NCBI RefSeq assembly: GCF_002305895.1 | Contig: NZ_CP022203.1 | Coordinates: forward strand, 5,620,501 to 5,684,500 | Length of the DNA: 64,000 bases | Direction of reading: 5' to 3' | Origin: Corallococcus macrosporus DSM 14697 | GTDB taxonomy: Bacteria; Myxococcota; Myxococcia; Myxococcales; Myxococcaceae | Shown: piece after piece, positions 1 through 19,848 of the stretch | Position numbering within the stretch: the first letter of the stretch is position 1 | How the letters are laid out: every line of letters begins with the position of its first letter | Made by a program: the position numbers and the translations under genes | The notes under the pieces: model-generated | What the model saw: the letters and a program-made list of their open reading frames with translations, nothing else | Databases searched by the model: none | Told to the model about the DNA's origin: nothing

Positions 1-3000
1 TGCCCTGGCACCGCCATCACCCATAGCTTGCTGACGCCGCTGGGGCAGCGCACCAGGACCTCCAGCTCCCGGCCCGCTTCGATTCGCGCCTTCAACAGCG
101 GCGTGCCACCCGGCAGCAAGGCGCCGCTGACGTGGACCTCACAGCCGGGAGCCGCGCCCGTCACGCTGAGCAGGCCCGTGGTGCCCGGCTCCGGCGAGGC
201 GTCCGCCAGCGTGCGCACGTCGATTCCCTCGCGCTGCTGCGTGGTCCCGAACCGCCGCAGCTTCCCGTCCACCGCCGTGGAGATGAGCAACGGGCCACCC
301 GAAGGGTCATGCACGTCCGTCCCCGGCACGTAGCGCAGGCCGCCGACATAGACATGCTCGCCGGCCCCCACGTTGACGAAGCTGGAGTTCGTGTCGCGCG
401 CCAGCACCACCGCCACCACGGCCAGCACCAGCGCGCCGCCGCCCGCGATGCCCAACCACTTCCACGGTGGCCGCTTGCCCGCGGCGTCGCTGTCGGGGGC
501 GACGGCACGCGCCGCGGGACGCGCTGGAGCGGGCTCGGCGAGCCGCGCGGCGCTGGCCTGAGCGCCGTGGCCCTGCGCCGGTCCGGGAGGACGCGGCGAC
601 GCATGCTGCGGCTGGGAGGCACGCGGCGATGCGGGCATGGCCGGCTGCGACTGGGAGGCACGCGGCGATGCGGGCATGGCCAGGTGCGGCTGGGAGGCGC
701 GCGGCGCGGGAGGGGGCGGCGGCGAGGGCGGCGGCGGCGCTCCCAGGTTGAGCGGCACCACCTCGGTGCGGTCGTTCGCGTCGTCCTCGGAGACGGGGAT
801 GCCCGGGAAGGAGTCATCCGGCGGAGGCGGCGCCGGGGGCCGCGACGCTGGCGCCGCGACACCGACGGGCCGAGGCGGGTGCGCCGTGGGGACCGGAGGC
901 CCCGGACGGGAGAGGCTGCCGCTGCCGCCCGTGCCCGGACGGCTGCCAGCGACGGGCACGCTGCCCCGGCTGGGCGTCCGTCCATCCATGGGCGCGGACA
1001 TCTCCCCACTGCCGATGTTGCCGCTGCCGGTCCCCGAGGGCACGGGCCGCGGGTGGCTGCCCGTGCCGCCCACGGCGGAGGGCGCGAACTCCACCAGCCG
1101 GTCTCCCAGCGTGTCCTTGAAGAACTGGGCCACCGCCGCGGGCGACGAGTTGAGCCGGTGGTGCGCCATCACCGCTTCAATCTCCTCGCGCAGCGCCGCG
1201 GCGGACGGCGTGCGGCGCGCCGGGTCCTTCACCAGCGCGCGGAGGACGAGGTCGGAGACGTCCTGCGGGATGTTCGGCTTGAGCTGCGACGGCACCGGCG
1301 CCGGGTCCCGGACGATGGCCTGCAGCGTCGCCGCGTCGTGGTCCCTGCGGAACGGGAGCGTGCCGGTGAGCAGCTCGAAGAGCACCACGCCCAGCGCGAA
1401 CACGTCGTTGCGCGCGTCCAGCGTGCGCCCGGACGCCGCCTCCGGGGAGATGTACGAAATCTTCCCCTTCAGCACGCCGGCCTGCGTGTGCTCCTCGCCC
1501 GCCACCTTGGCGATGCCGAAGTCGCTCAGCTTGATGGCGCCGTCCAGCGAGATGAGGACGTTGTGCGGGCTGACGTCGCGGTGCACCACCGGGTGCGGCG
1601 TGCCCGCCGGGTCCACGTAGGCATGGGCGTAGTGCAGGCCCGCGGCCACCTCCGCCACGATGCGCAGCGCGTGCTCCAGCGGGAGCGCCAGCCCCTTGCG
1701 CCGCAGCTCGATGACCAGCTTCTTCAGGTCCGGCCCGCGCACGTACTCCATGAGGATGTACGCGACGCCGTCGGACACGCCCACGTCGAAGGTCTGCACG
1801 ACGTTCGGGTGCGTCAGCCGCGCGTTGGCGCGGGCCTCCGCGAAGAGCATGTCGACGAACTCGGGGTTCTCCGCGAACTGCGGGAGAATCTTCTTCATCA
1901 CCACGAACTTCTCGAAGCCCTTCACGCCCACCTGCTTGGCGAGGAAGACCTCCGCCATGCCGCCCTGCCCCAGCCGCCGGATGACGTTCAGCTTGGAGCT
2001 GCCCAGCGAGTTGGAGATGTCGGTGGACGCGCCCTGACGGGCCGCCGGGTCGATGTTCGTGGCGCCGAAGAGGTACTGACTGAGGGCGCGCGTCTCCAGC
2101 GCCTCCAGCTCCTCCAGCGGCCGGTCCGTGAGCTGCATCCGCGCCAGCAGCCCCTGGAGCTGGGGCATGTGCGGGACGCGGGCGTTGCCGCCGCAGATGG
2201 GGCACGGCACGTCCACGCCCGCGTCCTGCGCCCGCAGCTTCGCCAGGTAGTCCATGGCCTGGACGCGCTGGTGGCTCACCTGCCCGCAGTTGCGGCAGTC
2301 ACACGGCAGCCACAGCGTGGCCAACCGCACCGGCAGCACCTTGGCCGAGCGCGCCAGCACCGCCAGCGCCGGCGGCGGCACCCGGCACAGCACCACGTGC
2401 GCGCCCTGGGCCGCCGTCTCCAGCACCTGCTCCAGCTTCGGCAGGGCCTCCGGCTCCACCTTGCTGACGTGGCTGAAGTCGAAGCCGACGCGGCCCTCCA
2501 GGCCCGACGCCAGCCGGCGCACGTTGAGGTCTCCCTTCAACGCGCTGGCCAGGGTGATGTACGTGATGTCGTCCTGGATGATCTTCAGGTGCTGCGCCAG
2601 CTCCGGCTGCTCCGTCGGCATGCTGGCGCGCAGGTAGCGCATGACGACCGGGTCCACCTGGCCGAACTGCTGCCGCCGCGCGTAGTCGAAGAACTCGCCC
2701 GGCAGGTCCGCGAACTCCAGCGGCCCCTGGCACACGGGGCAGGTGTGCTCGGGCGCGCGCTCCTCGGAGATGACCTGCGCCTCGTCCAGCAGGTTCACCA
2801 GCCGCAGCCGGTCCTCGTCGCAGGCGCGGCAGGTGTAGGGCGCGAGCAAGGAGAGGACGCGGGCGACGCCAGCGAAGCCCTCCACCATGTTGAGCTGGTC
2901 CACGATGACGGGCGGCGCGTGGACCACGTAGAGCCCCAGCGCCCCCGGGGGCAGCTTGGCGGCGAACTCAATCCACCGCCGCACCCCGAAGGAGCTGATG

Positions 3001-3173
3001 CGCTCCACCTGCCCCAGGTCGACCACCAGGAGCCCGTTGAGCTCCGGGCTGGTGGACGTCAGGGGGAACGTTTCGTCGATGTAGCCGGAGATCCGGACGT
3101 GGGTGATCGTCCCCACGCGGAGCCGGCTGATGATGGCGTTGGAAACCTGGCTATCCACCGGCCCTGACCTCAT
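1..3173 (-). CDS. Ser/Thr protein kinase with two STAS-like and two Cys-pair segments, 3' end cut by the window
   Basis: The frame is open from ATG at 3173 to base 1, so at least 1057 residues are seen and the C-terminus is missing. Visible order: STAS-like fold about 15-110 (DLGQVERISSFGVRRW), Cys pairs CRAC (115-118) and CPVC (145-148), a second STAS-like stretch about 205-285 (DFSHVSKVEPEAL), Cys cluster CDCRNC (291-296) and CPIC (324-327), then a Hanks-type kinase domain about 395-670 with GQGGMAEV (403-410), Lys 427/428, HRDVSPHN (531-538) and DFG (551-553). A Pro/Ser/Ala-rich linker, a membrane helix near 902-923 and an outer segment follow. The kinase should phosphorylate cytosolic Ser/Thr. 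STAS domains normally bind GHKL anti-sigma-type proteins, and such a gene sits directly upstream with a 4-bp ATGA overlap. Paired Cys motifs suggest zinc ribbons. The domain order was read by eye; the kinase call is certain, the STAS calls are moderately strong. Confidence 0.9.
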   Translation of the reverse strand, partial: MRSGPVDSQVSNAIISRLRVGTITHVRISGYIDETFPLTSTSPELNGLLVVDLGQVERISSFGVRRWIEFAAKLPPGALGLYVVHAPPVIVDQLNMVEGFAGVARVLSLLAPYTCRACDEDRLRLVNLLDEAQVISEERAPEHTCPVCQGPLEFADLPGEFFDYARRQQFGQVDPVVMRYLRASMPTEQPELAQHLKIIQDDITYITLASALKGDLNVRRLASGLEGRVGFDFSHVSKVEPEALPKLEQVLETAAQGAHVVLCRVPPPALAVLARSAKVLPVRLATLWLPCDCRNCGQVSHQRVQAMDYLAKLRAQDAGVDVPCPICGGNARVPHMPQLQGLLARMQLTDRPLEELEALETRALSQYLFGATNIDPAARQGASTDISNSLGSSKLNVIRRLGQGGMAEVFLAKQVGVKGFEKFVVMKKILPQFAENPEFVDMLFAEARANARLTHPNVVQTFDVGVSDGVAYILMEYVRGPDLKKLVIELRRKGLALPLEHALRIVAEVAAGLHYAHAYVDPAGTPHPVVHRDVSPHNVLISLDGAIKLSDFGIAKVAGEEHTQAGVLKGKISYISPEAASGRTLDARNDVFALGVVLFELLTGTLPFRRDHDAATLQAIVRDPAPVPSQLKPNIPQDVSDLVLRALVKDPARRTPSAAALREEIEAVMAHHRLNSSPAAVAQFFKDTLGDRLVEFAPSAVGGTGSHPRPVPSGTGSGNIGSGEMSAPMDGRTPSRGSVPVAGSRPGTGGSGSLSRPGPPVPTAHPPRPVGVAAPASRPPAPPPPDDSFPGIPVSEDDANDRTEVVPLNLGAPPPPSPPPPPAPRASQPHLAMPASPRASQSQPAMPASPRASQPQHASPRPPGPAQGHGAQASAARLAEPAPARPAARAVAPDSDAAGKRPPWKWLGIAGGGALVLAVVAVVLARDTNSSFVNVGAGEHVYVGGLRYVPGTDVHDPSGGPLLISTAVDGKLRRFGTTQQREGIDVRTLADASPEPGTTGLLSVTGAAPGCEVHVSGALLPGGTPLLKARIEAGRELEVLVRCPSGVSKLWVMAVPG
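612..704 (-). repeat. 39-bp tandem repeat in the kinase linker
   Basis: A unit beginning CTGGGAGGCACGCGGCGATG (+ strand) occurs at 612 and 651 with a period of 39 bp, and a decayed third copy starts at 690. The period is a multiple of three, so the repeats stay in frame and encode a repeated Ala/Ser/Pro/Gln-rich stretch of the cytoplasmic linker before the membrane helix. Confidence 0.85.
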
Positions 3174-4012
3174 TGAAGACAGAACAGCAGCGACTTGGGT
3201 TGTGCGGCGCGGCGGCGGGCCTCCCCCAGGTCCACCACGCACAGGACTCGTGACTCTCGGCCAGCCGCCACACGGACCGCCACCGCATCACTGTGCTCCA
3301 GGATGCGCCGCAGCCCCAGCCCCGCCCCTCCTCCGGACGCATCCACCTGGACGCGTCCGCCCCACCCCTCCAGCGCCCGGGCGAAAGGGCCCGGACGCAG
3401 ACCGCCGAAGCGGTCCACGACTTCCAGCCACACGCGGCCCTCCTCCACCACGTAGGACAGCTCGCACGCGTCCTCCGGCGCCACCTCGCGGACCTCGGCG
3501 CGGCGGTGCGCGTAGCGGTGCTGCCCCTGCGCGTCCACGGGCGCGTCCCACAGCGCGTTGGCCGCCAGCTCGTGCACCACGTCGGCCACCAGCGCCGCCG
3601 CCGTGCGCGAGCCCCGCGCCTGCGTCACCGCCCGCGCCGCGGCCTCCCCCGTGGCGTTGATGTCCGCCACGGCCTGGAGCCGGTGCCGCGAGGCCCCCGG
3701 AGGGAGCAGCGCGTCCCCCCGCAGCAAGGCCCCCAGCAGCCGCGTCTCCCACGCGGAGGGATGACCGTCCGCGCCGCGCGTGGCCAGCAGCAACGCGGGG
3801 GGCTCGCGGCGCAGGGACTCCGCGTGCGCGGGTGACAGCTTCCCGTCGAAGAGCACCAGGCGCCGGAGCCCCGAGGGCGACCCCGGCCCCTGACACAGCG
3901 CCACCCCGTCCCGCGCGAGGATGGGCGCCGCCTGCTCCACCAGCGCCGGAGCCAGTGAGTCGTCTGCAATCAACAGGAGGCCACCAGCCTCCAGGTGGGG
4001 GGCGGTACTCAA
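3170..4012 (-). CDS. GHKL-ATPase (RsbW/RsbT-like) protein with an N-terminal receiver-like region
   Basis: 280 residues. The C-terminal half carries ATP-binding motifs of the HATPase_c/GHKL type seen in anti-sigma kinases: N-box DVVHELAANAL (about 160-175), a D-box-like VVDRFGGL, and the G2 box GGGAGLGL near 235-245. The first ~110 residues begin LLLIADDS and look like a degenerate response-regulator or ATP-less fold; I cannot assign them firmly. The start is TTG at 4012, because no ATG is available and the frame begins 4 bp after the TonB-receptor stop. The stop overlaps the start of the STAS-kinase gene (ATGA). Known biology: RsbW-like ATPases bind STAS proteins and sigma factors or anti-sigma partners. 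Inference: its partner is the STAS part of the downstream kinase, and the PP2C phosphatase of the same gene run resets it. Confidence 0.8.
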   Translation of the reverse strand: MSTAPHLEAGGLLLIADDSLAPALVEQAAPILARDGVALCQGPGSPSGLRRLVLFDGKLSPAHAESLRREPPALLLATRGADGHPSAWETRLLGALLRGDALLPPGASRHRLQAVADINATGEAAARAVTQARGSRTAAALVADVVHELAANALWDAPVDAQGQHRYAHRRAEVREVAPEDACELSYVVEEGRVWLEVVDRFGGLRPGPFARALEGWGGRVQVDASGGGAGLGLRRILEHSDAVAVRVAAGRESRVLCVVDLGEARRRAAQPKSLLFCLQ

Positions 4013-4015
4013 GAG

Positions 4016-6619
4016 CTAGTAACGAACCTTGACTTCGCTGAAGAACGACTGGGGCGGCGCGGGGAAGCCGTGGGATTCCTCGTACTGCGCGTTGAAGAGG
4101 TTGGAGCCGAGGAACGACACGGAGATGCCGTCGTAGACGTTGAAGCCCACGCGCGCGCTGGCCGTGACGTAGCTGGGGAGCTGCACGCGGGTGGTGGGCA
4201 GGCCCGTCGTCTCATCCACCTCGAAGCCCGGGTCGTACCGCGAGCCCACCAGCAGCGCGTACAGCTCCACGAAGGCCACCTTGCCGATGTTGGTGCGGCC
4301 ACGCGCGTAGATGCGGTGGGCCGGCGCGTAGTCCAGCGGGGACTGCGGGCCGTCGTCGTACGGCAGCGCCTTGGCGTCCAGGAACTGGTAGGCGATGTCG
4401 AAGGACGAGTTGATGGACGGAATCTGCGCGGCCGCCTCCAGCTCGAAGCCCGCCACCCGCGCGTCGCCCATGTTCTGGAACTGCGACACGGAGCCGAAGA
4501 CGAGCTGCTGGTTGATGAAGTTCTTCGCCAGGTTGTAGAAGCCCGTGCCCGTCAGGCGGACCCTCCGTTCGAAGGGCCAGAAATCCACCGACGCCTCGAT
4601 GGTGTCCAGCGTCTCCGCGCGCAGGTTTCCATTGCCCACCAGTGTGGCCGCGTACATCTGTTGGTTGATGGCCAGCTCCGCCAGGGTGGGCGCGCGGAAG
4701 GCGCGGCCGTAGTTGGTGCGCAGCGTCAGCAGCTCCGGCACCGCGTGGAACACCACGCTGGCGCGCGGCGAAATCTGGTCCGTGCGGTTCCGCCAGACGC
4801 GCTCGGGAATCTGGTAGCGGTCGTAGCGGGCGCCCGCGCCCAGCACCAGGCGGTTGAAGAGCCGGTACTCCGCGTCCACGAAGCCACCGAGGATGGTCTG
4901 CCGCGTGTCGTCCATGCTCAGCTCGGGCAGGACGTTGGGCACGTTGACGGTGTCCGCCTTCAAGTCACCGCCGAAGGTGACGTTGAGGTCGCCCAGGGTC
5001 CACAGCGCGCGCGCCTCGCCGCCCAGCCGGCGCCGCTTGCCCAGCGCGCGGGTGGGGTCGCCACCGAAGGCGTTCTCCATCTGCACGTCGCGGCGCTTGA
5101 AGAAGCCGTACGCCTGGCCGAACAGGCGCAGGTTGTCGGTGACCTGCTGGTCCACCTGCGCGGAGGCGTTGAAGTTCTGCACCGACTCGGAGTCGTTCGG
5201 CGTGTAGTGGCAGCGGCCGCAGTTGCCCACGGTGGAGATGTGCGTGCCACCCGGGCGGCCAATCTCCGCGTCCGTGAAGTCCGCGTCCAGCGCCAGCGGG
5301 CCGATGCGCACCTTGCCGTTGACCTGGTGGACCAGCGAGTCCTGGTTGGTGTCCACGCGGCCCACGCGCGGGTCGTTGAAGAGCTGCGGGCCGTCCGAGC
5401 CGAAGCCGTAGTAGCCCAGCAGGGCCTCCACCGGGCCGCCCCGGCCGGCCACCGTGCCGTGCAGGCGCCACGTCTGGTCCTGGCCCGCCAGCACGCGGGC
5501 CTCGGCGCCCACGTTCTTCCCCTTCTCGATGAGGTCCGACGGCTGGCGCTGGATGACGTTGATGACGCCGCTGAAGGCGTTGGAGCCGTACAGCGAGGAC
5601 CCTGGACCGCGGATGACCTCCACCTGCTTGAGGTTGGTGAGCGGCGTCGTCTCATCCGCGTAGAACTGGCCCGTCCACGGGTCCGTCAGCGGCCGGCCGT
5701 CCTGGAGCAGCAGCAGGCGGTTGGACAGGTAGTTGGAGCCCAGGCCACGCGCGCTCACCGCCGCCTTGCGCATGGAGCCCCGGCGGCACTCCATGCCGGG
5801 GAAGTACTGGATGGCCTCGCACAGCGTGAACTGGCCGGTGCCCTCCAGCTCGTCGGCCGGAATCCAGGACACCGTGAGGGGCACGTCGGAGATGCGCTGC
5901 TTGCGCTTGCCGGCGGTCGTCACCACCGCCTCGCTGAGCACGCGGTTGACGGACTCCTCCAGGGCGTCAGCCCCGCCCAGCGGGTCGTCCCCCAGGCCCG
6001 CGAGCCCGGAGGGCGGCGGCAGGGGCCGGTCCAGGGCCGGCTCCGCGAAGGGCGCGCTGATGGGCACGTTCGACGCGGGCGCGGGCTGGTGCGCGGGCAG
6101 CGTGGCGGTGGCCGGCGGCGGGTTCGTCGGCGCGTCCGGCGGGTTGAAGTCCGTGCCCACCGGCGGCAGGGCCCGCGGCGCGGCGGGCTCGGCCGTCAGC
6201 GGCGTGGCCGGCGTGAGGGGCGCCGCGGCGGGCGTGGTCACCGGCGGGGGCGGCATGGGCGGCATGGCCGGCGGGCTCGAGGAGGAGGAGTCCTCCGAAC
6301 CGGGCCCGCTGCCCAGCACCGGAATCTCCTGCGCGTCCTCGTCCTCGACGGGCGCCGGCTTGACGGCCTTGCGCGGCTTCCTCGCCGTCTTGCTGGAAGT
6401 GGAGCGCGTGGACGCCGCGGGCTTCACCACCCGCCGCCTGCGCTTCACCTTGGAAGGGGCCTCTTTTTCGCCGGTGTCCTGCGCCACCGCGCTTGAAGGA
6501 ACGACGAAGGCCAGGAAGCACAACATGAGGGACAGCGGCAGGCCGGCGCGCATGGCGCGGCGTCCGGCAACCGCCTTCGCCGCGCCTCGCCGCGGCTCAC
6601 CGAACACAGTCGAGTGCAT
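4016..6619 (-). CDS. TonB-dependent outer-membrane receptor
   Basis: A TonB-dependent transporter/receptor. From the start chosen here (ATG at 6619) it has 867 residues; ATG at 6553 is equally possible and gives a cleaner signal peptide (MRAGLPLSLM then VVPSSAVAQD). The open frame itself reaches back to 6793. After the signal comes a Lys/Arg- and Pro-rich periplasmic stretch of ~180 residues, unusually long, then the plug (AVVTTAGKRKQRISDVPLTV, with VEVIRGPGSSLYGSNAFSGV typical of plugs) and a 22-strand type barrel ending in an aromatic residue (SEVKVRY). A CGRCH (CXXCH) motif lies in the first third of the barrel. Such receptors import chelated metals or other scarce ligands, or act as signal transducers. 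The next gene downstream starts 4 bp after its stop, and a PhnD-like binding protein lies upstream. No ligand can be named from sequence. Confidence 0.93.
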   Translation of the reverse strand: MHSTVFGEPRRGAAKAVAGRRAMRAGLPLSLMLCFLAFVVPSSAVAQDTGEKEAPSKVKRRRRVVKPAASTRSTSSKTARKPRKAVKPAPVEDEDAQEIPVLGSGPGSEDSSSSSPPAMPPMPPPPVTTPAAAPLTPATPLTAEPAAPRALPPVGTDFNPPDAPTNPPPATATLPAHQPAPASNVPISAPFAEPALDRPLPPPSGLAGLGDDPLGGADALEESVNRVLSEAVVTTAGKRKQRISDVPLTVSWIPADELEGTGQFTLCEAIQYFPGMECRRGSMRKAAVSARGLGSNYLSNRLLLLQDGRPLTDPWTGQFYADETTPLTNLKQVEVIRGPGSSLYGSNAFSGVINVIQRQPSDLIEKGKNVGAEARVLAGQDQTWRLHGTVAGRGGPVEALLGYYGFGSDGPQLFNDPRVGRVDTNQDSLVHQVNGKVRIGPLALDADFTDAEIGRPGGTHISTVGNCGRCHYTPNDSESVQNFNASAQVDQQVTDNLRLFGQAYGFFKRRDVQMENAFGGDPTRALGKRRRLGGEARALWTLGDLNVTFGGDLKADTVNVPNVLPELSMDDTRQTILGGFVDAEYRLFNRLVLGAGARYDRYQIPERVWRNRTDQISPRASVVFHAVPELLTLRTNYGRAFRAPTLAELAINQQMYAATLVGNGNLRAETLDTIEASVDFWPFERRVRLTGTGFYNLAKNFINQQLVFGSVSQFQNMGDARVAGFELEAAAQIPSINSSFDIAYQFLDAKALPYDDGPQSPLDYAPAHRIYARGRTNIGKVAFVELYALLVGSRYDPGFEVDETTGLPTTRVQLPSYVTASARVGFNVYDGISVSFLGSNLFNAQYEESHGFPAPPQSFFSEVKVRY

Positions 6620-6815
6620 CGTTCTCACATCCAGGGGTGGAGCATGGACACCCGAGGTCCTGTACGTGCGACCCGGAGACGGGGGCGGCGTCAGCGCTTG
6701 CGTCGGGGGGAACGCTTTTTCACGGCTGGACACCAACGCCATCATTTTCAAGCTACCCCAGACCCCACGCCGGGCCAAGTCGTTGGCTCTCATTCTCTAG
6801 AAACTCGGGAAAGTA
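6620..6815 (-). other. 196-bp spacer between the PhnD-like gene and the TonB receptor
   Basis: This is the only large gap in the six-gene run. The receptor frame stays open through most of it (to 6793) but the translated stretch has no signal peptide and unlike composition, so I treat it as leader. It may carry a separate promoter for the receptor. I see no riboswitch-like conserved box. Confidence 0.4.
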
Positions 6816-7730
6816 TCAGTCGTCCGGCTGTTCCGACGACACGGCGAGGTCACCCACGAAGGACGGCAGCGCGGGCCCCAGCTCCTCGGCGCGCACCAGC
6901 ACGCTGGACTCCACGCGGAGGTCGGCGCTGTCGGCGAGCACGGGCTGGCGGCGCGGCGGGCCCCGCGTGACGAGCTTCCGGAAGTCCTCGAAGTCCTTGT
7001 CCTGGAGCCGCGCGAACGCGTCGAACGGCGCCACCGCGCCCACCTTCCCCAGCGCGCTGGTGAGGACGGCCTCGTGGTTGCGCAGGTCCACCAGCAGGGC
7101 GCCCGGCACGCGGCCACTGCGGAAGAGGACGCGCACGTCCCTGGGCACGTGCGCCAGCGGCACGAGCGCCGCATCCGCGCCCTTGGCCTCCAGCATCTTC
7201 AACGCGGACTCCACGTTGGGCACGGGGGCCAGCTTGAAGTGCTTCTGGGCGTCCAGGTCTCCGCCGAGCACCACGTGGGTGACGAACTTCGGGTCGGCCG
7301 GGCCCGCGCCCTTGACGTGCGCCAGGCGCTTGCCGGCGAGGTCCTTCACCGCGCCGCGCTGCAACGCGACGATGGCCCAGCGCTGCTGGGTGTCACCGGC
7401 GCGGGAGGCCCAGGCCACCGGCTTCGCCTTGGCGCCGAGCTGCACGGCGGCCCACGCGTCCACCACCGCGAAGTCCACCAGCCCGCCCGCCACCGCGCGG
7501 GAGAAGTCCTCGTAGCGGCCGAAGCTCTTCGCGGCCACGGGCGCGTCCAGCGTCTCCGACAGCCGCGCGGCCAGGGCCTCCGCGTATTCGAAGCGCTCCT
7601 GTCCATCCGCCAGCGTGGTGGCCAGGAAGACGCCCAGGGTGGCCTTCTTCGGCGCCGCGGCCGCGGCACCCGCGGCCAGGGTGCAGGCCAGCACCAGGCC
7701 AGCCAGGAGGGAACGGGGTGACGTCTTCAT
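6816..7730 (-). CDS. PhnD-like periplasmic substrate-binding protein
   Basis: 304 residues from ATG at 7730. A Sec signal peptide (MKTSPRSLLAGLVLACTLAA, cleavage after AAAAA) precedes a PhnD/SsuA/transferrin-type fold: LGVFLATTLADGQERFEYAEAL at the N-terminus, FAVVDAWAAVQL, and DLAGKRLAHVKG, which matches the hinge region of phosphonate/phosphite binding proteins (family resemblance read by eye). The start ATG overlaps the stop of the upstream TPR gene (ATGA), so the two are translationally coupled. No ABC permease or ATPase gene is nearby, which is unusual for this family. Inference: it acts as a ligand-sensing or ligand-delivering protein for the adjacent TonB receptor or for the phosphatase sensor rather than for an ABC importer. 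Confidence 0.8.
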   Translation of the reverse strand: MKTSPRSLLAGLVLACTLAAGAAAAAPKKATLGVFLATTLADGQERFEYAEALAARLSETLDAPVAAKSFGRYEDFSRAVAGGLVDFAVVDAWAAVQLGAKAKPVAWASRAGDTQQRWAIVALQRGAVKDLAGKRLAHVKGAGPADPKFVTHVVLGGDLDAQKHFKLAPVPNVESALKMLEAKGADAALVPLAHVPRDVRVLFRSGRVPGALLVDLRNHEAVLTSALGKVGAVAPFDAFARLQDKDFEDFRKLVTRGPPRRQPVLADSADLRVESSVLVRAEELGPALPSFVGDLAVSSEQPDD

Positions 7731-10243
7731 GGGGTCTCCTCCACGGTGGCGTCGGCGGGCGAGCCCGCGGCGGGCTCGGCCAGGCCGTGCAGACTCTGCA
7801 GGCGGTCCTTCCACTCGCGCACCTGCGCCATGCGCGGGCCGGTGCCTCCGGCCAGGTAGCGGCGCCACGCGTCCACGGCCTCGCCCGCGTCCTTGCGGCG
7901 CTCCTGCGCGTCGATGCCCAGGTTGAGCGCGGCCACCGGGACGCTCGGCTCCAGCCGCCGCCACGCCTCCACGGCGTCCGACGTGCGGCCCTTGCGCCAG
8001 TCGACGCAGGCCAGGTTGTGTTGAAGCTGCGCGTCATCCGGGCTGCCGGCCAGCGCGGCCTTGAAGGCCTTCTCCGCGACCTTCAGCTTGCCCGCGTTGT
8101 ACGCCAGCGCCGCCTCGCGCCGGTGCAGCGCGCCCGTCATGGCCGTCAGCCACTTGGGCTGGCCGGGCATCGGCTTCTTCGCCGCGGCGGTGAGCTGCCT
8201 GCGCGCGGCCGGCACCTGCCCCTTCTTGTAGAGCACGAAGGCCGTGGCCAGCGCGCGGGTGTTGGGCCAGGCCCAGGGCTGCGCGGGCTTGAGGGACCTG
8301 GCGATGGCGGCGCTCGCCTCCGCGTGGCGCCCCGCCTCCGCGCGCGCCAGGCCGCGCACGAACTGGGCCAGCTTCACCAGCTCCTTGCGGTTGCCCGTGC
8401 CCAGCTTGTCCACCAGGTCCAGGTCGCGCTCGGCGGCCTCGGCGTCCCCGCTCTCCAGCCGCGCCAGCGCCCGGCGCACCAGCACGCGCGGGAGGTTGGC
8501 GCCCGCCACCTGCGCCGCGGCGCGCGACGGCCCCGCCGCGGTGAGCCGCTGCACCGCCGCGTCCACCTGCCCCAGCTCCACCTCGGCCAGGGCGGCGCCG
8601 ACGGAGGTCTCGGCCTGCTCGTCGGGCTCCTCCGTCTGCGTCCCCGCGCGGGTGAAGGCCTCCAGGGCCGCCTGCGCGTCGTGGGTGGCCAGCCGCGCGT
8701 AGCCCAGGAGCAGGCTGTCCCGCCACGTGGCGCCCGGCAGCGTCACGCCCTGCTCCAGCACCTTGCGCGCGTCCGCGTAGGCCTTCGTCTCCAGGAGCGC
8801 GGCGCCCAGCCGGCGGGCCATGGGCGCGGCGCGCTCCAAATCGTAGGCGCGGCGCAGGTCCCGCACGGCGTCCTCCAGCCGCCCCGCCCCCGCCCTGTCC
8901 CGCGCCCGGTGCGCCAGGGCCCGGGCCAGCCACAGCTTCGCCCCGGCGTGCTCCGGCTCCACCTGCAGCGCGTTGGCGTAGTCCTCGATGGCCTGGTCCC
9001 ACTGGCCGGTGGCGAAGTGGTCCGCGCCCAGCAGCACGTAGCCCAGGGCCTGGCGAGGCGCCAGCTCCACCACGCGCCGGTGCACCTCCACCGCGCGCTG
9101 GAAGCGGCCCGCGCGCCGGTTCACCGAGCCCAGGTTGGCCCACAGCTCCAGGCTGTTGGCGCCCGCGCGCACCGCGCCCTCCAGGAACTGGATGGCCTCC
9201 TCGTGCCGGCCCTGCGCCTGCAGCGCCTTGCCCACCGCCATCTGCCCCAGCACCAGGCCCGGCTGGAGCTGGAGCACCTTGCGGTACTCCGCCTCCGCGG
9301 CGGCCGCGTTCTTCTGCGCGAAGCGCACGTCGCCCAGCAGCAGGTGCGCGGCGGGCGAGCTGCCCAGCTTCACCAGCGCCTGCGCCTGCGCGTCCGCCTT
9401 CGCGACGTCACCCGCGCCCAGATACAGGCGCGCCAGCTTCTCCCGCGCGTCGCCCGCTCGCGGGAAGCGCGTGGTGACGCCCTCCAGCAGCTTGCGCGCC
9501 TCCACCAGCTTTCCCTCCAGCTCCAGCACCTGCGCCAGCCCGAACTGCACCGACGGCGACTCCGGCCGCCCCGCCTGCGCCTGCTGGAAGGACGCGCGCG
9601 CCTGCGCGGCGTCCCGGCGCAGGACGTGCGCGCGGCCCAGCAGCTCGTGAATCTGGAAGTCGTTGGGCGCCAGGGCGGGCGGGCGCAGCGCCAGGTAGCG
9701 CTTCAGCCGCGTGGCCGCCGCGTCCCCCTGCTGGACGTAGAGGTAGTAGCTGGCCAGGTAGTAGTGGACGATGAGGTGCTCGGCCTTGTCGGCCGTGGCC
9801 ACCTGCTCCATCAGCGGCACGGCCTCCGGGTAGCGGCGCAGCTTGAAGAGCGCCACGCTCACCGGATAGGCCAGGTTCAGCTCCGCGGGGTTCGCCGTCA
9901 GCACCGGCTGCACGCGGTCCACGGTGCGCTGCCAGTCGTTGAGGGCGTTGGCGCTGGCGCCCAGGCCCGCGGCGGCGGTCACGTTGCCGGGCTCGGCCGT
10001 GAGCGCCTGTTCGAAGAGGGCCAGGGCCTTGCGGTACTTCTCCTCGGCCTCCTTCTTGTCACCCGAGGCGCTGGCGGCGCTGGCGGCCACCTGGGCCGAC
10101 TCTCCGTCGTGCACCAGCCGCTGCGCCTCGGACATGGGCGGCGGGCGGTACTGCGCCAGCGCGGGCGGGCCGCACAGGGTGGTCAACAGCGCCAGGGCCG
10201 GCGTGAGCCGGCGCGACCGAGGATGGCGAGGGGAGCGTCGCAT
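7727..10243 (-). CDS. exported tetratricopeptide-repeat protein
   Basis: 838 residues with a signal peptide (LTPALALLTTLCGPPALAQY) and TPR-like helix pairs along almost the whole length, for example YRKALALFEQALTAEPGNV, YRKVLQLQPGLVLGQMAVGK and IEDYANALQVEPEHAGAKLW. Periplasmic TPR arrays act as protein-interaction scaffolds. It starts 24 bp downstream of the phosphatase gene and its stop overlaps the start of the PhnD-like gene. No enzyme domain is visible. In myxobacteria large exported TPR proteins occur in motility and envelope complexes, but nothing here ties this one to a known complex. Inference: a scaffold linking the phosphatase sensor, the binding protein and the TonB receptor in the periplasm. 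Confidence 0.88.
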   Translation of the reverse strand: MRRSPRHPRSRRLTPALALLTTLCGPPALAQYRPPPMSEAQRLVHDGESAQVAASAASASGDKKEAEEKYRKALALFEQALTAEPGNVTAAAGLGASANALNDWQRTVDRVQPVLTANPAELNLAYPVSVALFKLRRYPEAVPLMEQVATADKAEHLIVHYYLASYYLYVQQGDAAATRLKRYLALRPPALAPNDFQIHELLGRAHVLRRDAAQARASFQQAQAGRPESPSVQFGLAQVLELEGKLVEARKLLEGVTTRFPRAGDAREKLARLYLGAGDVAKADAQAQALVKLGSSPAAHLLLGDVRFAQKNAAAAEAEYRKVLQLQPGLVLGQMAVGKALQAQGRHEEAIQFLEGAVRAGANSLELWANLGSVNRRAGRFQRAVEVHRRVVELAPRQALGYVLLGADHFATGQWDQAIEDYANALQVEPEHAGAKLWLARALAHRARDRAGAGRLEDAVRDLRRAYDLERAAPMARRLGAALLETKAYADARKVLEQGVTLPGATWRDSLLLGYARLATHDAQAALEAFTRAGTQTEEPDEQAETSVGAALAEVELGQVDAAVQRLTAAGPSRAAAQVAGANLPRVLVRRALARLESGDAEAAERDLDLVDKLGTGNRKELVKLAQFVRGLARAEAGRHAEASAAIARSLKPAQPWAWPNTRALATAFVLYKKGQVPAARRQLTAAAKKPMPGQPKWLTAMTGALHRREAALAYNAGKLKVAEKAFKAALAGSPDDAQLQHNLACVDWRKGRTSDAVEAWRRLEPSVPVAALNLGIDAQERRKDAGEAVDAWRRYLAGGTGPRMAQVREWKDRLQSLHGLAEPAAGSPADATVEETP

Positions 10244-10266
10244 GTGTGTGAGGTCCCGGAAGGAGG

Positions 10267-12093
10267 TCAGGCGGCGGGGCTGAACTCGGCCACGACGACG
10301 GTGATGTCGTCCCGCTGCGGCTGGCCGGCGCTGTAGGCCCGCGCGTCCGCGAGCACCGCGTCACGCAGGGCCTCCGCGGACAGGTGGGCGTTGGCCTGCA
10401 CCGCGGCGGCCAGGCGCTGGGTGCCGTAGAGCTTGCCCGCGCCGTCGCGCGCCTCGGTGAGGCCGTCCGTGTACCAGACCACCACGTCGCCGGGACGCAG
10501 CTGCGCCTGGCGCGAGGTGAACTGCGAGTCCACGGACGCGCCCAGCAGGGGGCCGCGCGCGGGCAGCGACGCGAGCTGGCCGCTGCGCTTGTTGAACACC
10601 AGCGGGCTGGGGTGCGCGCCCGCCGCGTAGTCGATGTAGCCGTTGGACACGTCGATGACGGCCAGCGCGCTGGACATCTGGTGTTCACCGCGGCCCACGT
10701 TGGCCAGCGTCACGTTGAGGGCGGTGATGAGCATCTGCGCGTTGACCTGGGAGGGCTCGCGCAGCGTCATGGCCGAGGCGAAGCCGCTGGTGGCGCTGGT
10801 GGCCACCAGCGAGGTGGACAGGCCGTGGCCCGTCACGTCGCCAATTCCGATGACGATGCGCCGGTCATCCAGGGCGGCCCGGAACCACCAGTCGCCGCCA
10901 CACGCGTCGGCGGTGACGACCAGGCCGGCGATGCGCAGCGGCCCCACCTGCACGGCCTCGCGGCCCGGCAGCAGCGTCTCCTGCACGGTGCGCGCGAGCG
11001 ACACCTCGCGCTCGAGCTGCGCCTTGGCGCGCACGTCCTCCAACAGGACCTTGATGCGCTCGGCCATGTGGTTGAACACCACGCCCAGCGTCACCACCTC
11101 ACGGCCCGCGCCCTGGGCGGTGCCCGCGCGCGCGCCCAGGTTGCCGGCGGCGAGCTGCATCACCTTGCTCGTCAGCATGCCCAGCGGCCGGGTGATGCGG
11201 CGGCTCTGATAGGCCACCAGCACGCCCGCCAGCACCACGAAGCCCAGCCCCAGCCCCAGCATGCGCAGCGTGTTGGCGCGCACCGTGGCGCGCTTGTCCT
11301 GCTCCAGCGACTCGAGCTGCTTCTGCAGCCCGCCCAGCGAGTAGCTGATGACGACCAGGCCCTTGCCGCTGCTGGAGCCGTAGTCGATGGGCTCCTGGAT
11401 TTCGGAGATGGGCTGCCCCTGGTAGAAGGCGCTCACCAGGCGGCGCTCGGCGCGGCGGGCGGGCGCGGCCTCCTCCTTGTCCTCGCTGGCGCCCTCGCTG
11501 TCCGCCATCCGCACCCCGTCCGGGTCGAAGATCTGCACCCGGAGGATGTTGGGGTTCGTCTTGACGATGGAGCCCGCCACCTCTTCGAGGAAGGCGTAGT
11601 TGTTGTCGCGCAGGTTGGTGGCGGAGGTGAGCGCGATGGTCTGCCCCACCGTCTGGCCCAGCTCGCGCGCCTGCTCCTGGATGCGCTCCTTGGAGACGAG
11701 CGCCGTCTCCTCGAACTGGGACTGGGTGGAGGCCACCGACAGCGCCGCCAGCAGGCCCACGATGAGCACCACCAGCAGGCCGGTGGTGAGCAGGAGGAGC
11801 TGATCCAGCCGCAGGCCCTTGATCTGGGCCACGTTGGGCAGCTCCCCCGCCTCCAGCGGAGCGATGAGGGTGCGGGTGCCCCCCTCCCCCAGCCCCAGGG
11901 GGCCTGTCAGGTTGGTGGCGGTGGACTCCCGCGCGCCCGTGACTTCCCGGGTGCCCGTCCGCTCGGACGGAGGGAGCGCGTCGTCCTGGAACTCGCCGGA
12001 CGGGGGCGCGGACTTCAGTCGCGTATTCGTACTGGACAAGGGCGGGCCGGGGTGGGGACGCGCGGGGGCGCGCGGGAAACAGGGGTGTCTCAA
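10267..12093 (-). CDS. membrane PP2C-type phosphatase (SpoIIE/RsbU family) with periplasmic sensor and HAMP
   Basis: Up to 608 residues. Order: a polar N-terminal tail of ~95 residues, membrane helix about 98-120, periplasmic sensor-like region about 121-277 (Cache-like length), second helix about 278-296, HAMP about 297-350, then a SpoIIE/PP2C catalytic domain about 385-605 with ACGGDWW, GDVTGHG, YTDGLTEA and RDDITVVV, which hold the expected metal-binding Asp residues. Known members dephosphorylate STAS-domain anti-anti-sigma factors. The start is uncertain: TTG at 12093 or TTG at 12039, neither with a good ribosome-binding site. It is the first gene of the run leading to the GHKL ATPase and the STAS-kinase, which are its expected partners. 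Confidence 0.9.
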   Translation of the reverse strand: MRHPCFPRAPARPHPGPPLSSTNTRLKSAPPSGEFQDDALPPSERTGTREVTGARESTATNLTGPLGLGEGGTRTLIAPLEAGELPNVAQIKGLRLDQLLLLTTGLLVVLIVGLLAALSVASTQSQFEETALVSKERIQEQARELGQTVGQTIALTSATNLRDNNYAFLEEVAGSIVKTNPNILRVQIFDPDGVRMADSEGASEDKEEAAPARRAERRLVSAFYQGQPISEIQEPIDYGSSSGKGLVVISYSLGGLQKQLESLEQDKRATVRANTLRMLGLGLGFVVLAGVLVAYQSRRITRPLGMLTSKVMQLAAGNLGARAGTAQGAGREVVTLGVVFNHMAERIKVLLEDVRAKAQLEREVSLARTVQETLLPGREAVQVGPLRIAGLVVTADACGGDWWFRAALDDRRIVIGIGDVTGHGLSTSLVATSATSGFASAMTLREPSQVNAQMLITALNVTLANVGRGEHQMSSALAVIDVSNGYIDYAAGAHPSPLVFNKRSGQLASLPARGPLLGASVDSQFTSRQAQLRPGDVVVWYTDGLTEARDGAGKLYGTQRLAAAVQANAHLSAEALRDAVLADARAYSAGQPQRDDITVVVAEFSPAA

Positions 12094-12300
12094 GACTCTA
12101 TCTTACTTCTCGTGCTTCGCGAGGCCCTGTCCCCACATCCACGCCGCGCCGGGGAAGCCGCCACGGACGGCATGTCACTGGAGCCATGTCATCCCAATGT
12201 CATGGAGTCGGTTGGGGCCGCGCGTCATTCACCCTGGGTGCGGCGGGCCCCGCCCCTTCCCCGGGCACGGCGCCAGGGTGGCGGTTACAGTCGGAGGTCC
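12094..12300. other. divergent intergenic region
   Basis: 207 bp separating the leftward phosphatase operon from the rightward M50 protease. It must hold promoters for both directions. I cannot mark convincing -35/-10 boxes, and the GC content is as high as in the genes. Confidence 0.4.
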
Positions 12301-13395
12301 ATGCGGCCCCATTTCCACGTGGCCGGCTTCCCGGTCCGGATCCACCCGCTCTTCTTCCTCGTCGCGCTGATGACGGGCTGGACGCTCATCTCCGAGCCCG
12401 CGCGGCTCGCGCTGTGGGTGGGCATCGTCTTCGTGTCGGTGCTGCTCCACGAGCTGGGGCACGCGCTGGCCTTCCGCCGCTACGGCTGCTCCGCGCGAAT
12501 CGAGCTGCACGGGATGGGCGGCACCACGCAGACGCACGAGGCCGCGCACCTCACCCACCGGCAGTCGGCCTGGGTGAGCTTCGCCGGGCCGGGCATCGGC
12601 TTCCTCGCGGGGGGACTGGTCTGGGCCGCGTCACAGCTCGCCCCCATGGGCGCGCCCGGAGGGCTGGCGGACCAGGGCGTGCGGCAGTTCCTCTGGGTGA
12701 ACGTCGGCTGGGGGCTCTTCAACCTGCTGCCCATGCAGCCCCTGGACGGCGGGCACCTGCTGGCGGACCTGGTGCGCGCGCGCAGCGGCTACCGCCATGA
12801 GCGGAAGCTGCTGTGGGTCGGCATCGTCACGGCGGTGGGGGTGCTGGGGCTGGCCATCGGGGCGAAGCAGGTCTGGCTCGGGATGCTCGCGCTGATGCTG
12901 GGGGTGATGAACGTCGAGCAGCTCCGCCGGACGCCGGAGGTCCACCCCGCCGAGCCGCGCTTCGTCTTCCAGCGCCGGAAGGCGTCCGCCCCGGGCGCCG
13001 TCTCCCTCCCCCAACGGATGGACGCGCCGAGGGGCAGCGCCGCCACCGTCCCCCTCGACGAGGAGGACGACCTGGAGGGCCCGCACGACCCGGCCCTGGT
13101 GGGCGAGCTGCTCCTGGACAGCGGGCTGCCGGAGCTGGCCGTGGGCTCGCTCCAGTCCGCCTTCACCCAGGCGCCCCTGCCGCGCACCGGCCACGCGCTG
13201 GTGCGGGCCCTGCTGAGTACCGGCCGGCTCCAGGAGCTGGCGTCGCTGCTGGACAGCTCCCACGCCCGGCAGCTCTCCGAGGACACCCTGGCCCTCATCT
13301 CCCAGCACGCCGGAGCGGCCCACGAGGCCGTCCTCACCGAGCGCCTCACCGCTCTGCGTCATGGCCGGGCTCCTGCCCCCAATGAGCCCCGCTGA
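12301..13395 (+). CDS. M50 (site-2 protease-like) intramembrane metalloprotease
   Basis: 364 residues from ATG at 12301 (MRPHFHVAGF). A multi-pass membrane protein with the zinc motif HELGH near residue 55 and the second conserved motif LLPMQPLDGG near 145, which supplies the third metal ligand Asp; the short-loop architecture resembles the SpoIVFB/Rip3-like M50 group. After the last membrane helix (about 200) there is a ~130-residue soluble tail with an acidic patch (DEEDDLEG) and helical TPR/HEAT-like segments (VGELLLDSGLPELAVGSLQ). Such proteases cut membrane-anchored regulators or signal peptides. The gene stands alone between a divergent operon and a terminator hairpin, and no substrate is obvious. 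Confidence 0.9.
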   Translation: MRPHFHVAGFPVRIHPLFFLVALMTGWTLISEPARLALWVGIVFVSVLLHELGHALAFRRYGCSARIELHGMGGTTQTHEAAHLTHRQSAWVSFAGPGIGFLAGGLVWAASQLAPMGAPGGLADQGVRQFLWVNVGWGLFNLLPMQPLDGGHLLADLVRARSGYRHERKLLWVGIVTAVGVLGLAIGAKQVWLGMLALMLGVMNVEQLRRTPEVHPAEPRFVFQRRKASAPGAVSLPQRMDAPRGSAATVPLDEEDDLEGPHDPALVGELLLDSGLPELAVGSLQSAFTQAPLPRTGHALVRALLSTGRLQELASLLDSSHARQLSEDTLALISQHAGAAHEAVLTERLTALRHGRAPAPNEPR

Positions 13396-13421
13396 TTGCC
13401 GCGCCGCGCCAGAAGGTGCTC

Positions 13422-13446
13422 TCCGCCTGACGTCCCGGCAGGCGGA
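13422..13446. terminator. stem-loop after the M50 gene
   Basis: Perfect 8-bp stem TCCGCCTG (13422-13429) / CAGGCGGA (13439-13446) with a 9-nt loop, 26 bp after the stop. There is no T-run, as is common in this GC-rich genome. Confidence 0.55.
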
Positions 13447-13458
13447 CCATCAACTGCC

Positions 13459-13488
13459 TTGAGCGCCGGGCACGCATCCGGGTTATAG
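13459..13488 (+). promoter_or_regulatory. candidate housekeeping promoter of the E1 alpha/beta operon
   Basis: TTGAGC (13459-13464) and TTATAG (13483-13488) are separated by 18 bp and lie 32 bp before the GTG start of the E1 alpha gene. This is a visual match to a sigma70-type promoter in otherwise GC-rich DNA. Confidence 0.45.
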
Positions 13489-13520
13489 GGGCGTCCCCTC
13501 CAGCCAGAGGAAGGTCGCGC

Positions 13521-14531
13521 GTGTCTCGTCCCCGACTCATCAAAGAATCCTCAGAAGCGTCCGCGCCGCTCGAGCGGGAGCTGCTGGTCCGCATCCATGA
13601 CCTCATGGTGAAGACGCGCGTCCTCGAGGAGCGTCTCATCCAGATGTACAAGCAGGGCCACGGATACTTCTGGATCGGCGGCCCCGGCGAGGAGGCGTTC
13701 AACGTCTCCCTGGGCCTGCTCATGAAGAAGGGCCAGGGCCCCGAGTTCGACTATCTGCATGCCCACTACCGCCAGTCCGGCACGCTGCTCGCGCTGGGCG
13801 AGGAGCCCATCGGTTCGCTGCGGCAGATGAAGAACACGGCCACGGACCCGTACTCCGGCGGCCGCAACTTCGCGGGCCACTACTCCGCCCGGAAGCTCAA
13901 CGTGGCGCCGGTGTCCTCGCCCATCGAGGTGCAGTACGCCATCGCGCCGGGCACGGCCATGGTGCAGAAGCGCCACGGCGGTGACGGCATCACCATCGTC
14001 ACCGGCGGTGACGCGGGCACGGCCGAGGGCGATTTCGCCTCGTGCCTGGTGTGGAGCAGCCGCCCCGCCAACCCGCTGCCCATCCTCATCATCGTCACCA
14101 ACAACAAGTGGGGCATCTCCACGTCGGCGGAGGGCCAGCACGGCGAGCCGCGCGTCAGTGAGCGCGGCAAGGCCTTTGGCATCCGCAGCAAGACCATCAA
14201 CGGCAACGACGCCGTGGAGGCCTACACCGAGCTGCGCGAGGCCATGGCCTATGTGCGCACGGAGCGCAAGCCCTTCCTCCTGGAGGCCAACGTGTCGCGC
14301 CTCTACGGCCACTCCTCCGCCTCCGGCGCCAACTACGTGGGCACCGAGGTGGACTGCCTCAAGGAGTTCGAGGCGAAGCTGGAGAAGGAAGGCATCCTGA
14401 CGCGCGAGCAGATGGACACGCTGCGCAGCAACTACACCGAGGAGATGGCCGCCGCCGCCCGTCAGGTGCGCGACGAGCCACAGCCCGACCCCGAATCCAT
14501 CTGGAAGCACATCTTCGCGGAGGACAAGTAA
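13521..14531 (+). CDS. thiamine-diphosphate-dependent 2-oxoacid dehydrogenase E1, alpha subunit
   Basis: 336 residues. The start is GTG at 13521, preceded by AGAGGAAGG at good spacing. The TPP/Mg motif GGDAGTAEGD (172-181) is followed by NN at 204-205, the standard E1 alpha signature. The active-site loop segment with Tyr and Arg (SRLYGHSSASGANYV) aligns with the phosphorylation-loop region of branched-chain and pyruvate dehydrogenases. With the beta subunit it decarboxylates a 2-oxoacid and transfers the acyl group to lipoyl-E2. Branched-chain oxoacids are likely in myxobacteria, which need iso-branched primers for their fatty acids, but substrate cannot be fixed from sequence. No E2 or E3 gene is in the window. 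The beta gene follows after 3 bp. Confidence 0.93.
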   Translation: MSRPRLIKESSEASAPLERELLVRIHDLMVKTRVLEERLIQMYKQGHGYFWIGGPGEEAFNVSLGLLMKKGQGPEFDYLHAHYRQSGTLLALGEEPIGSLRQMKNTATDPYSGGRNFAGHYSARKLNVAPVSSPIEVQYAIAPGTAMVQKRHGGDGITIVTGGDAGTAEGDFASCLVWSSRPANPLPILIIVTNNKWGISTSAEGQHGEPRVSERGKAFGIRSKTINGNDAVEAYTELREAMAYVRTERKPFLLEANVSRLYGHSSASGANYVGTEVDCLKEFEAKLEKEGILTREQMDTLRSNYTEEMAAAARQVRDEPQPDPESIWKHIFAEDK

Positions 14532-14534
14532 CCC

Positions 14535-15593
14535 ATGGCGAACATGGCACAGGCCATCCGCATGGCCCTGCACTACGCCGAGGAGCACCTGGGCGTCACC
14601 GACATCTTCGGCGAGGACGTGGGCGCCCCCCTGGGCGGCGTCTTCACCTGCACGCAGGGCCTGAAGACGACGTGGAACTCCCCCCTGGACGAGCGCGGCA
14701 TCATCGGCGCGGCCATGGGCATCGCCATGGCCGGCGGCCGGCCGGTGGCGGAGATCCAGTTCTGCGACTACGTCTACAACACCATCGACCTGCTGAAGCT
14801 GGCGGGCAACACGAGCTGGTCCACCAACGGGGACTGGAACCTGCCCATGGTGGTGCGCACGCCGGTGGGCAGCGGCATCCGCGGGTCCATCTACCACTCG
14901 CACTCCTTCGACGCGACGATGACCCACATCGCCGGGTGGAAGGTGGTGATGCCCTCCACGCCGCTGGACGCGTACGGGCTGCTCATCACCGCGTGTCAGG
15001 ACAAGAACCCCGTCATGTTCCTGGAGCCCAAGGCGCTGCTGCGCGTGAAGGGCGAGGAGCGGATTCCGGGCGAGCCGGATGACGACCGCGCGCTGTCGAA
15101 GCTCATCGACGCGCCGCTGGGGGACCGCTCCCAGTGGAAGCCGCAGTGGCCGGCGGGCCTGGAGGCGTACGCGGTGCCCTTCGGCAAGGGCAAGGTGGTC
15201 CGCGAGGGCACGCAGCTCACCGTGGTGAGCTACGGCCGCACGCTGCCCCTGTGCGCCAAGGCCGCGGAGACGCTGGCCGCGGACGGCATCAGCGCGGAGG
15301 TCATCGACCTGCGCTCGCTGTGGCCCTACGACTGGGAGCTCATCAAGGCCTCCGTCCAGAAGACGGGCCGCGTCCTCTTCGTCAACGAGGACACCGAGGT
15401 GACGAACTTCGGCGAGCACCTGGTGCGCCGCACGGTGGAGGAGCTGTTCTATTCGCTGCTGGCGCCGCCTCGCCTGCTCGCCGGCAAGTTCCTGCCCGGC
15501 ATCGGCCTGGCGGACGCGCTGGAGATGGCGTCGGTGCCCCAGTTGGGTGACATCACCACCGCCATCCGCTCGCTGGCGGCGGAGCAGCCGTAA
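14535..15593 (+). CDS. thiamine-diphosphate-dependent 2-oxoacid dehydrogenase E1, beta subunit
   Basis: 352 residues from ATG at 14535, 3 bp after the alpha-subunit stop. Visible family features: DIFGEDVGAPLGGVF near the N-terminus (the Glu that activates the thiazolium), GAAMGIAMAGGRPVAEIQF, the transketolase C-terminal region (LTVVSYGRTLPL, DLRSLWPYD) and GRVLFVNEDTEVTNFGEHL. The protein forms the alpha2beta2 E1 heterotetramer with the upstream product. There is slightly more sequence than usual between the two halves, but all core motifs are present. Confidence 0.93.
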   Translation: MANMAQAIRMALHYAEEHLGVTDIFGEDVGAPLGGVFTCTQGLKTTWNSPLDERGIIGAAMGIAMAGGRPVAEIQFCDYVYNTIDLLKLAGNTSWSTNGDWNLPMVVRTPVGSGIRGSIYHSHSFDATMTHIAGWKVVMPSTPLDAYGLLITACQDKNPVMFLEPKALLRVKGEERIPGEPDDDRALSKLIDAPLGDRSQWKPQWPAGLEAYAVPFGKGKVVREGTQLTVVSYGRTLPLCAKAAETLAADGISAEVIDLRSLWPYDWELIKASVQKTGRVLFVNEDTEVTNFGEHLVRRTVEELFYSLLAPPRLLAGKFLPGIGLADALEMASVPQLGDITTAIRSLAAEQP

Positions 15594-15615
15594 GCAAGGC
15601 ACCCACAATGCCCTG

Positions 15616-15639
15616 CCCGTGAGTCCCTTGTCTCACGGG
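15616..15639. terminator. stem-loop after the E1 operon
   Basis: Perfect 8-bp stem CCCGTGAG (15616-15623) / CTCACGGG (15632-15639) with an 8-nt loop, 22 bp after the E1 beta stop. Confidence 0.6.
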
Positions 15640-15705
15640 AGAAGCGCCCCGGGCCGCCGTTCCTCTTTGGAGGGATGGCGGCCCATTCGTTAGACTCCGG
15701 AGGCT

Positions 15706-16203: not shown

Positions 16204-16239
16204 CAGCGCCCGCGCCGGGGCTCCACCGCCCTGGCGCGG

Positions 16240-16605: not shown

Positions 16606-16811
16606 ACGCACCCGATAACCCCCACGTTCGACGCTGCTGGCGAACCACGCATCTTCCCACACCCACAGTCTCACAGGGTGACGCGCCGGGCCAACCGCAG
16701 GGCACCGAGCGTCCGCCAAGTGTCCGCTGCTTTCCACGCCCGATTCAAGGGGCCCCCTCTATCGTATTCGAGTGCCTATGTCCTCGGGGACTTGCCCGGG
16801 AGCGCCTTGGA

Positions 16812-17687: not shown

Positions 17688-17810
17688 CCAGCGCGCAAGG
17701 CGCGACGGAGGGCGGCCAGGCAACCGGGGCTTCGGAGCGGGTGGGTTCCCAGACAACCGGCTGGCAGGGCACGGTGCGGTGTGCATCCTGCAAAGCCGGG
17801 AGGGATGGGA

Positions 17811-19082: not shown

Positions 19083-19100
19083 CCGGGCCGCCGCCCGCGC

Positions 19101-19814: not shown

Positions 19815-19848
19815 CGCCGCCTCCTGAGAATGCCGGACGCCGCGCAGC

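Follow-up and report, generated by a model that had tools for sequence, protein, structure and literature searches.

Six adjacent genes of the soil-dwelling predator Corallococcus macrosporus DSM 14697 probably form a partner switch in which an input module of the outer membrane and periplasm is coupled to a Ser/Thr kinase as output. The genes lie at the start of the 64,000-nucleotide stretch analysed here (the window; positions 5620501-5684500 of an 8.97-Mb single-contig myxobacterial genome) and encode, from gene 1 to gene 6, a membrane PP2C/SpoIIE phosphatase, an exported TPR-repeat protein, a PhnD-like binding protein, a TonB-dependent receptor, a GHKL serine kinase and a protein in which two STAS domains are fused to a Ser/Thr kinase (Table 1). 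The evidence for this reading consists of gene identity, conservation and loss of the genes together, the folds predicted for their products, and catalytic and acceptor residues that are intact.

In the proposed mechanism the GHKL protein, of the SpoIIAB/RsbW/SiaB class, would phosphorylate Ser61 in the first STAS domain (STAS1) of the kinase, and the membrane SpoIIE phosphatase would strip this phosphate upon stimulation of its periplasmic sensor. Dephosphorylated STAS1 would then capture the GHKL protein, whose bound or free state would switch the kinase domain behind STAS1. The TonB receptor, PhnD-like and TPR proteins would bring or present ligand to the sensor of the phosphatase. Ligand presentation probably falls to the TPR protein and to the PhnD-like protein, to which no ABC transporter is linked, and the receptor may transfer its signal directly.

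Components of the switch

The metal site expected of a partner-switching PP2C/SpoIIE phosphatase is intact in gene 1 (PF07228, E 7e-40 by Pfam): the motifs GGDWW, GDVTGHG, YTDGL and DDITVV are all present, as they are in most orthologues. Two transmembrane helices (amino acids 100-118 and 276-294) flank the periplasmic sensor and are followed by a HAMP domain at amino acids 297-347 and the SpoIIE catalytic domain at 409-604. In a distant relative (locus L081) the periplasmic sensor is recognised as a single Cache domain, sCache_3_2. The best NCBIfam match is SiaA (E 1e-19), at 70 bits against a curated cut-off of 700 bits for the SiaA equivalog (NF038263).

Pfam, NCBIfam and PDB sequence searches all failed to identify the GHKL protein. 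By the fold of its structure model (pLDDT 87.9) it is an anti-sigma-class serine kinase and no sensor histidine kinase, with Z scores of 12.2 to SpoIIAB, 10.9 to RsbW, 10.9 to UsfX, 10.6 to SiaB and 9.9 to LvrC, and of at most 6.6 to histidine kinases. The residues of a serine kinase of the SpoIIAB/RsbW class are in place, namely E148 and N152 of the N-box (the catalytic Glu and Asn), D200 and G203 of G1, and GGAGLGL of G2; N-box and G-boxes are invariant. The receiver-like N-terminus looks degenerate. A distant member of the family also has a receiver-like N-terminus, together with a weak HATPase_c_2 match.

The STAS match in the kinase N-terminus is weak by Pfam (STAS_2, PF13466, E 1.4e-4, below cut-off), and PDB sequence-profile matches to this region are mostly spurious zinc fingers arising from its Cys motifs, for which reason folds were used instead. 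The model (pLDDT 89.5) contains two STAS-like domains and, after each of them, a zinc-ribbon-like insert with four Cys. STAS1 matches TM1442 (Z 11.0), SpoIIAA from SpoIIAB complexes (10.0-10.5), RsbV (9.9) and RsbS (9.4). Ser61 is the first residue of the helix after the central strand in the model, where SpoIIAA and RsbV carry their phosphoserine. It is invariant in the aligned sequences (28/28) and present in nearly all stand-alone relatives. The unit has all three core features of a partner switch on which sequence and fold can inform, namely the phosphatase with its metal site, the GHKL kinase and a STAS antagonist with a phosphorylatable Ser/Thr at a helix start. After its catalytic domain the kinase has a Pro-rich linker and a single transmembrane helix (907-925), and then an extracytoplasmic part of about 140 residues.

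An earlier note on this DNA, made from its letters, had named the same products. Pfam agrees for HAMP and SpoIIE, TPR, Phosphonate-bd, TonB plug and barrel, and Pkinase; the STAS call is sub-threshold and the GHKL call is without a Pfam match, and both were checked by structure prediction. The STAS fold that the note had placed in the kinase N-terminus was recovered in this way, with a serine at the phosphoacceptor place.

Conservation and loss of the unit

All six open reading frames are on the minus strand of the window, where the earlier note had put them, and their coordinates bear out its description of tight junctions except before the TonB gene. Genes 1 and 2 are 23 bp apart, genes 2 and 3 share a 4-bp ATGA overlap, genes 4 and 5 are 3 bp apart and genes 5 and 6 again share a 4-bp ATGA overlap, while the gap between genes 3 and 4 is 196 bp if the TonB receptor starts at 6619.

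A search for the GHKL protein covered 195 genomes of the phylum, and stretches of up to 20 kb around its matches were then read. The six genes occur in identical order in 17/17 fully covered orthologous loci from six genera, that of the window included, which upholds the earlier expectation that they would be found together in other genomes. Two more genera agree as far as their contig ends, one with the kinase gene cut (L046) and one with genes 3-6 present and gene 3 cut (L072). Most loci again show an overlap (-4 or -1) between genes 2 and 3 and between genes 5 and 6, start choices being mechanical.

The genes are also lost together. G114 and G129, two genomes from the genus of the window, were probed for co-loss of the GHKL, STAS-kinase, PhnD, SpoIIE and TonB receptor genes. 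GHKL, the STAS region and PhnD are without a match in either, and the SpoIIE and receptor matches are weak, at HAMP or paralogue level only, so the five probed orthologues are missing together. Three genomes of another genus, g7 (G091-G093), keep the STAS-kinase but have no orthologue of GHKL, PhnD, SpoIIE or the TonB receptor. In the two g7 loci read (L077 and L095) this orphan kinase sits in the same place beside dehydrogenase E1 genes, with the five upstream genes absent. In the orphans 18/197 otherwise invariant kinase-domain sites are changed (9%), including HRD to HCD, and R65 of the STAS domain is Ser (R65S). The corresponding figure in seven comparator groups is 0-1.7%, a pooled p-value being indicative only since the comparators share sites; in comparison with the intact g7 kinase (L050, 3/179) the Fisher p is 0.0014. 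The simplest reading of this change is that constraint on the kinase would depend on the switch genes.

Genus g3 also has second STAS-kinase copies at unlinked sites (L078:9175-10332 and L079:9111-10241). They keep Ser61 and R65, and the same GHKL protein might act on them in trans.

The six genes could be syntenic and yet functionally separate, as the E1 alpha and beta neighbours are also conserved with no evident functional tie. The joint loss in two genomes and the translational overlaps speak against this, as do recurrence in rearranged order in a distant genome and domain fusions (see below), and such mere synteny is considered very improbable.

Related loci in other genomes

In a distant family (L081) the order is TPR, PhnD, GHKL, free STAS, SpoIIE and TonB, the STAS not being fused to a kinase; L082 repeats this order from PhnD on, up to its contig end. 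In L074 a single open reading frame after the receptor gene encodes GHKL and STAS fused, and L124 has another such fusion. A genome scan with the GHKL alignment gave 76 loci, mainly in Myxococcota and Bdellovibrionota metagenome-assembled genomes. SpoIIE, GHKL and STAS are found together in Bdellovibrionota (L133, L139, L146, L173 and L191) and Deltaproteobacteria (L184 and L190). A TonB receptor, GHKL and a kinase occur, with STAS undetected, in 18 loci, of which many bear the label Kofleriaceae or Myxococcales. These sets are likely a sister system and, with the fusions, repeatedly link the GHKL family with TonB receptors and kinases. Where gene order was read (L138, L149 and L161, about 5000-12800), it is TonB receptor, GHKL, Ser/Thr kinase, with a PEGA tail in L138. 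Very large fusions of SpoIIE with kinase or GHKL domains also occur beside STAS genes (L119:9668-15043, L120:3193-8397 and L172:589-9624).

These loci bear on what the switch controls. The GHKL protein could be a classical anti-sigma factor that STAS frees from a sigma factor encoded elsewhere, with the kinase domain only a carrier or a second STAS regulator. Its fold is nearest SpoIIAB and RsbW, and sigma genes need no linkage; against this, no sigma-factor domain was found in the ten neighbouring genes scanned with Pfam (an unlinked sigma gene may exist), most loci have STAS joined to a kinase whose motifs are intact, and the many TonB-GHKL-kinase sets without a STAS match tie GHKL to kinases. 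An anti-sigma role of this kind is judged distinctly improbable. A kinase output fits because STAS is fused to the kinase here and GHKL-STAS fusions and GHKL/STAS neighbours are found elsewhere. The earlier proposal of a partner switch with a kinase output agrees with these data, and the relay it drew through receptor, PhnD-like and TPR proteins is conjectural.

Receptor and periplasmic proteins

The TPR protein has a signal-peptide-like N-terminus. The receptor has a plug and a barrel, with a Pro/Lys-rich linker of about 180 amino acids ahead of the plug, and its best-scoring type in NCBIfam is the haem/haemoglobin-type importer. Among the ten genes scanned with Pfam there is no ABC permease or ATPase gene with which the PhnD-like protein could make up a PhnCDE transporter. 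Signalling of the FecA type was rejected since the Pfam scan found no STN signalling domain on the receptor; adjacent FecR/FecI genes are likewise absent.

The SpoIIE/GHKL/STAS-kinase core could be real while the TonB, PhnD and TPR genes serve nutrient uptake, as a co-regulated set that is an output of the switch or simply lies next to it and is not its sensor. The importer-type score, the missing STN domain, the 196-bp gap ahead of the TonB gene and the occurrence of the core without these three genes would all suit such a set. An uptake role is harder to reconcile with a PhnD-like protein whose examined gene neighbours include neither an ABC permease nor an ATPase, with the recurrence of TPR, PhnD and TonB beside SpoIIE, GHKL and STAS, in other order, in the distant L081, and with the loss of PhnD and TonB alongside SpoIIE and GHKL in G091-G093. 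On balance it is regarded as unlikely, and a sensory role of the three proteins in the partner switch is preferred.

Several observations weigh against a single six-part partner switch. The TonB gene, behind the largest gap, may have its own promoter. Reduced versions of the unit without TonB, PhnD and TPR exist (e.g. L055-L057 and L059-L065), and these three are therefore not needed for the switch core. The residue preceding the acceptor serine is S, T or N, and not the Asp usual in SpoIIAA and RsbV. The second STAS-kinase copies of genus g3 lie apart from the other five genes, and the change in the orphan lineage is one evolutionary event that could be drift in a decaying gene. Phosphorylation cycle, binding, signal route, target, ligand and direction of the switch are all deduced from genes and folds.

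The receptor also carries a CGRCH (CxxCH) motif, missed in the earlier note, within a conserved stretch. Its core GNCGRCHY does not vary among the family receptors, even in one at 50% identity, and CxxCH occurs in only 1/19 plug-containing proteins of the genome, some of whose frames are cut by locus ends. CxxCH is the attachment motif of c-type haem. Judged from the strand pattern only, it probably sits in an extracellular loop, and it could be a site for covalent haem, a disulphide or a metal. As a general feature of the system it was rejected, the distant L081 and L082 receptors being without it. No described match for TonB receptors with CxxCH was found in the open-access literature, although subscription papers may hold one. 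A rather doubtful elaboration is that covalent haem on the surface loop (or a redox or metal site) might sense an external redox or haem-related cue and, via the PhnD-like and TPR proteins, drive a PP2C/GHKL/STAS switch that directly gates the transmembrane Ser/Thr kinase. If true, this would be a class of outer-membrane-to-kinase signalling distinct from the FecA type.

Gene arrangement and neighbourhood

The features of the unit are collected in Table 1; the stop of gene 6 is 33 bases outside the window. An Rfam scan of window positions 1-20000 gave no RNA match.

Table 1. Position, strand and basis of assignment of genes, domains and motifs of the six-gene unit (window coordinates).
Feature	Coordinates	Strand	Basis
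Gene 1, membrane PP2C/SpoIIE phosphatase	10267..12093	-	ORF (open reading frame) + Pfam
Gene 2, exported TPR-repeat protein, 838 amino acids	7727..10243	-	ORF + Pfam
Gene 3, PhnD-like (Phosphonate-bd, PF12974) periplasmic binding protein	6816..7730	-	ORF + Pfam
Gene 4, TonB-dependent receptor	4016..6793 (ORF shown; likely start 6619 or 6553)	-	ORF + Pfam
CGRCH (CxxCH) motif in receptor, inside conserved STVGNCGRCHY	5207..5221	-	alignment
Gene 5, receiver-like N-terminus + GHKL serine-kinase domain	3170..4012	-	ORF + structure model
Gene 6, STAS-Zn ribbon-STAS-Zn ribbon-Ser/Thr kinase-transmembrane helix-extracytoplasmic tail, 1068 amino acids	1..3173, runs past window start	-	
STAS domain 1	2850..3149	-	structure model
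Codon of Ser61 of STAS1, candidate phosphoacceptor	2991..2993	-	alignment + model
Zinc-ribbon-like insert 1, Cys115/118/145/148 invariant	2730..2831	-	alignment
STAS-like domain 2, no serine at acceptor place	2349..2591	-	model
Zinc-ribbon-like insert 2, Cys293/296/324/327	2193..2297	-	alignment
Hanks-type Ser/Thr kinase domain with GQGGMAEVF, VVMKK, HRDVSPHN, DFGIAK	1191..1988	-	Pfam

The dehydrogenase E1 alpha and beta genes (window 13521-15593, plus strand) stand divergently next to the unit in almost every family locus read, including those from which five of the six genes are gone. On the other side, a Lant_dehydr_N-like protein of 779 amino acids (L005:13075-15414, minus strand), outside the window at -86 to -2425, starts 52 bp after the kinase gene. 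The Lant_dehydr_N-like gene and, after it, a gene of unknown family both trail the unit in genera g1 and g3. A LanB-like gene also adjoins the TPR-PhnD pair in L080 (genome G109).

Relation to known systems and significance

Similar partner switches are known, but not with the present input and output combined. RsbU/RsbW/RsbV and SpoIIE/SpoIIAB/SpoIIAA likewise comprise a PP2C phosphatase, a GHKL serine kinase and a STAS protein with an acceptor serine, and the folds match; here, in contrast, two STAS domains and zinc ribbons form one protein with a transmembrane Ser/Thr kinase, no sigma factor is linked, and the products of the input genes are spread over outer membrane, periplasm and inner membrane. 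The known signalling by TonB receptors runs mainly through FecR/FecI. The unit resembles FecA/FecR/FecI in that a TonB receptor is thought to signal inward, and differs in having no STN domain and no FecR or sigma gene, with partner-switch proteins in their place. SiaABCD of Pseudomonas aeruginosa also has a membrane HAMP-PP2C phosphatase, a GHKL kinase (SiaB) near in fold to that of gene 5 and a non-sigma output, but this output is a diguanylate cyclase and the four-gene siaABCD has no TonB, PhnD or TPR genes (PMC7647112). LvrC of Leptospira similarly joins a receiver and an RsbW-like domain in one protein; its receiver is canonical and phosphorylated by LvrB, whereas that of gene 5 looks degenerate and is linked to a PP2C/STAS pair (PMC13269768). 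A Leptospira paper on TonB and SpoIIE was rejected as a precedent, being unrelated. No description of the six-gene unit, or of partner switches with TonB receptors, was found in the open-access literature; subscription papers may contain one.

In Myxococcus xanthus, MXAN_4562 is the only SpoIIE-like protein of the species and has a HAMP domain (PMC2887360), and the TonB receptor MXAN_4559, whose locus number is lower by three, has been detected in outer-membrane vesicles (PMC4158809). Judged by description and numbering, the two probably mark the orthologous locus; their function is not described in the open-access papers found. STAS domains fused to eukaryote-like kinases were noted earlier in Sorangium cellulosum, and 96 Ser/Thr kinases are listed for M. 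xanthus (PMC2887360).

The unit suggests a second route for TonB receptors, through partner switching to a eukaryote-like kinase and not to a sigma factor. As M. xanthus is genetically tractable and has a probable orthologous locus, the model could be tested there by point mutation of one serine.

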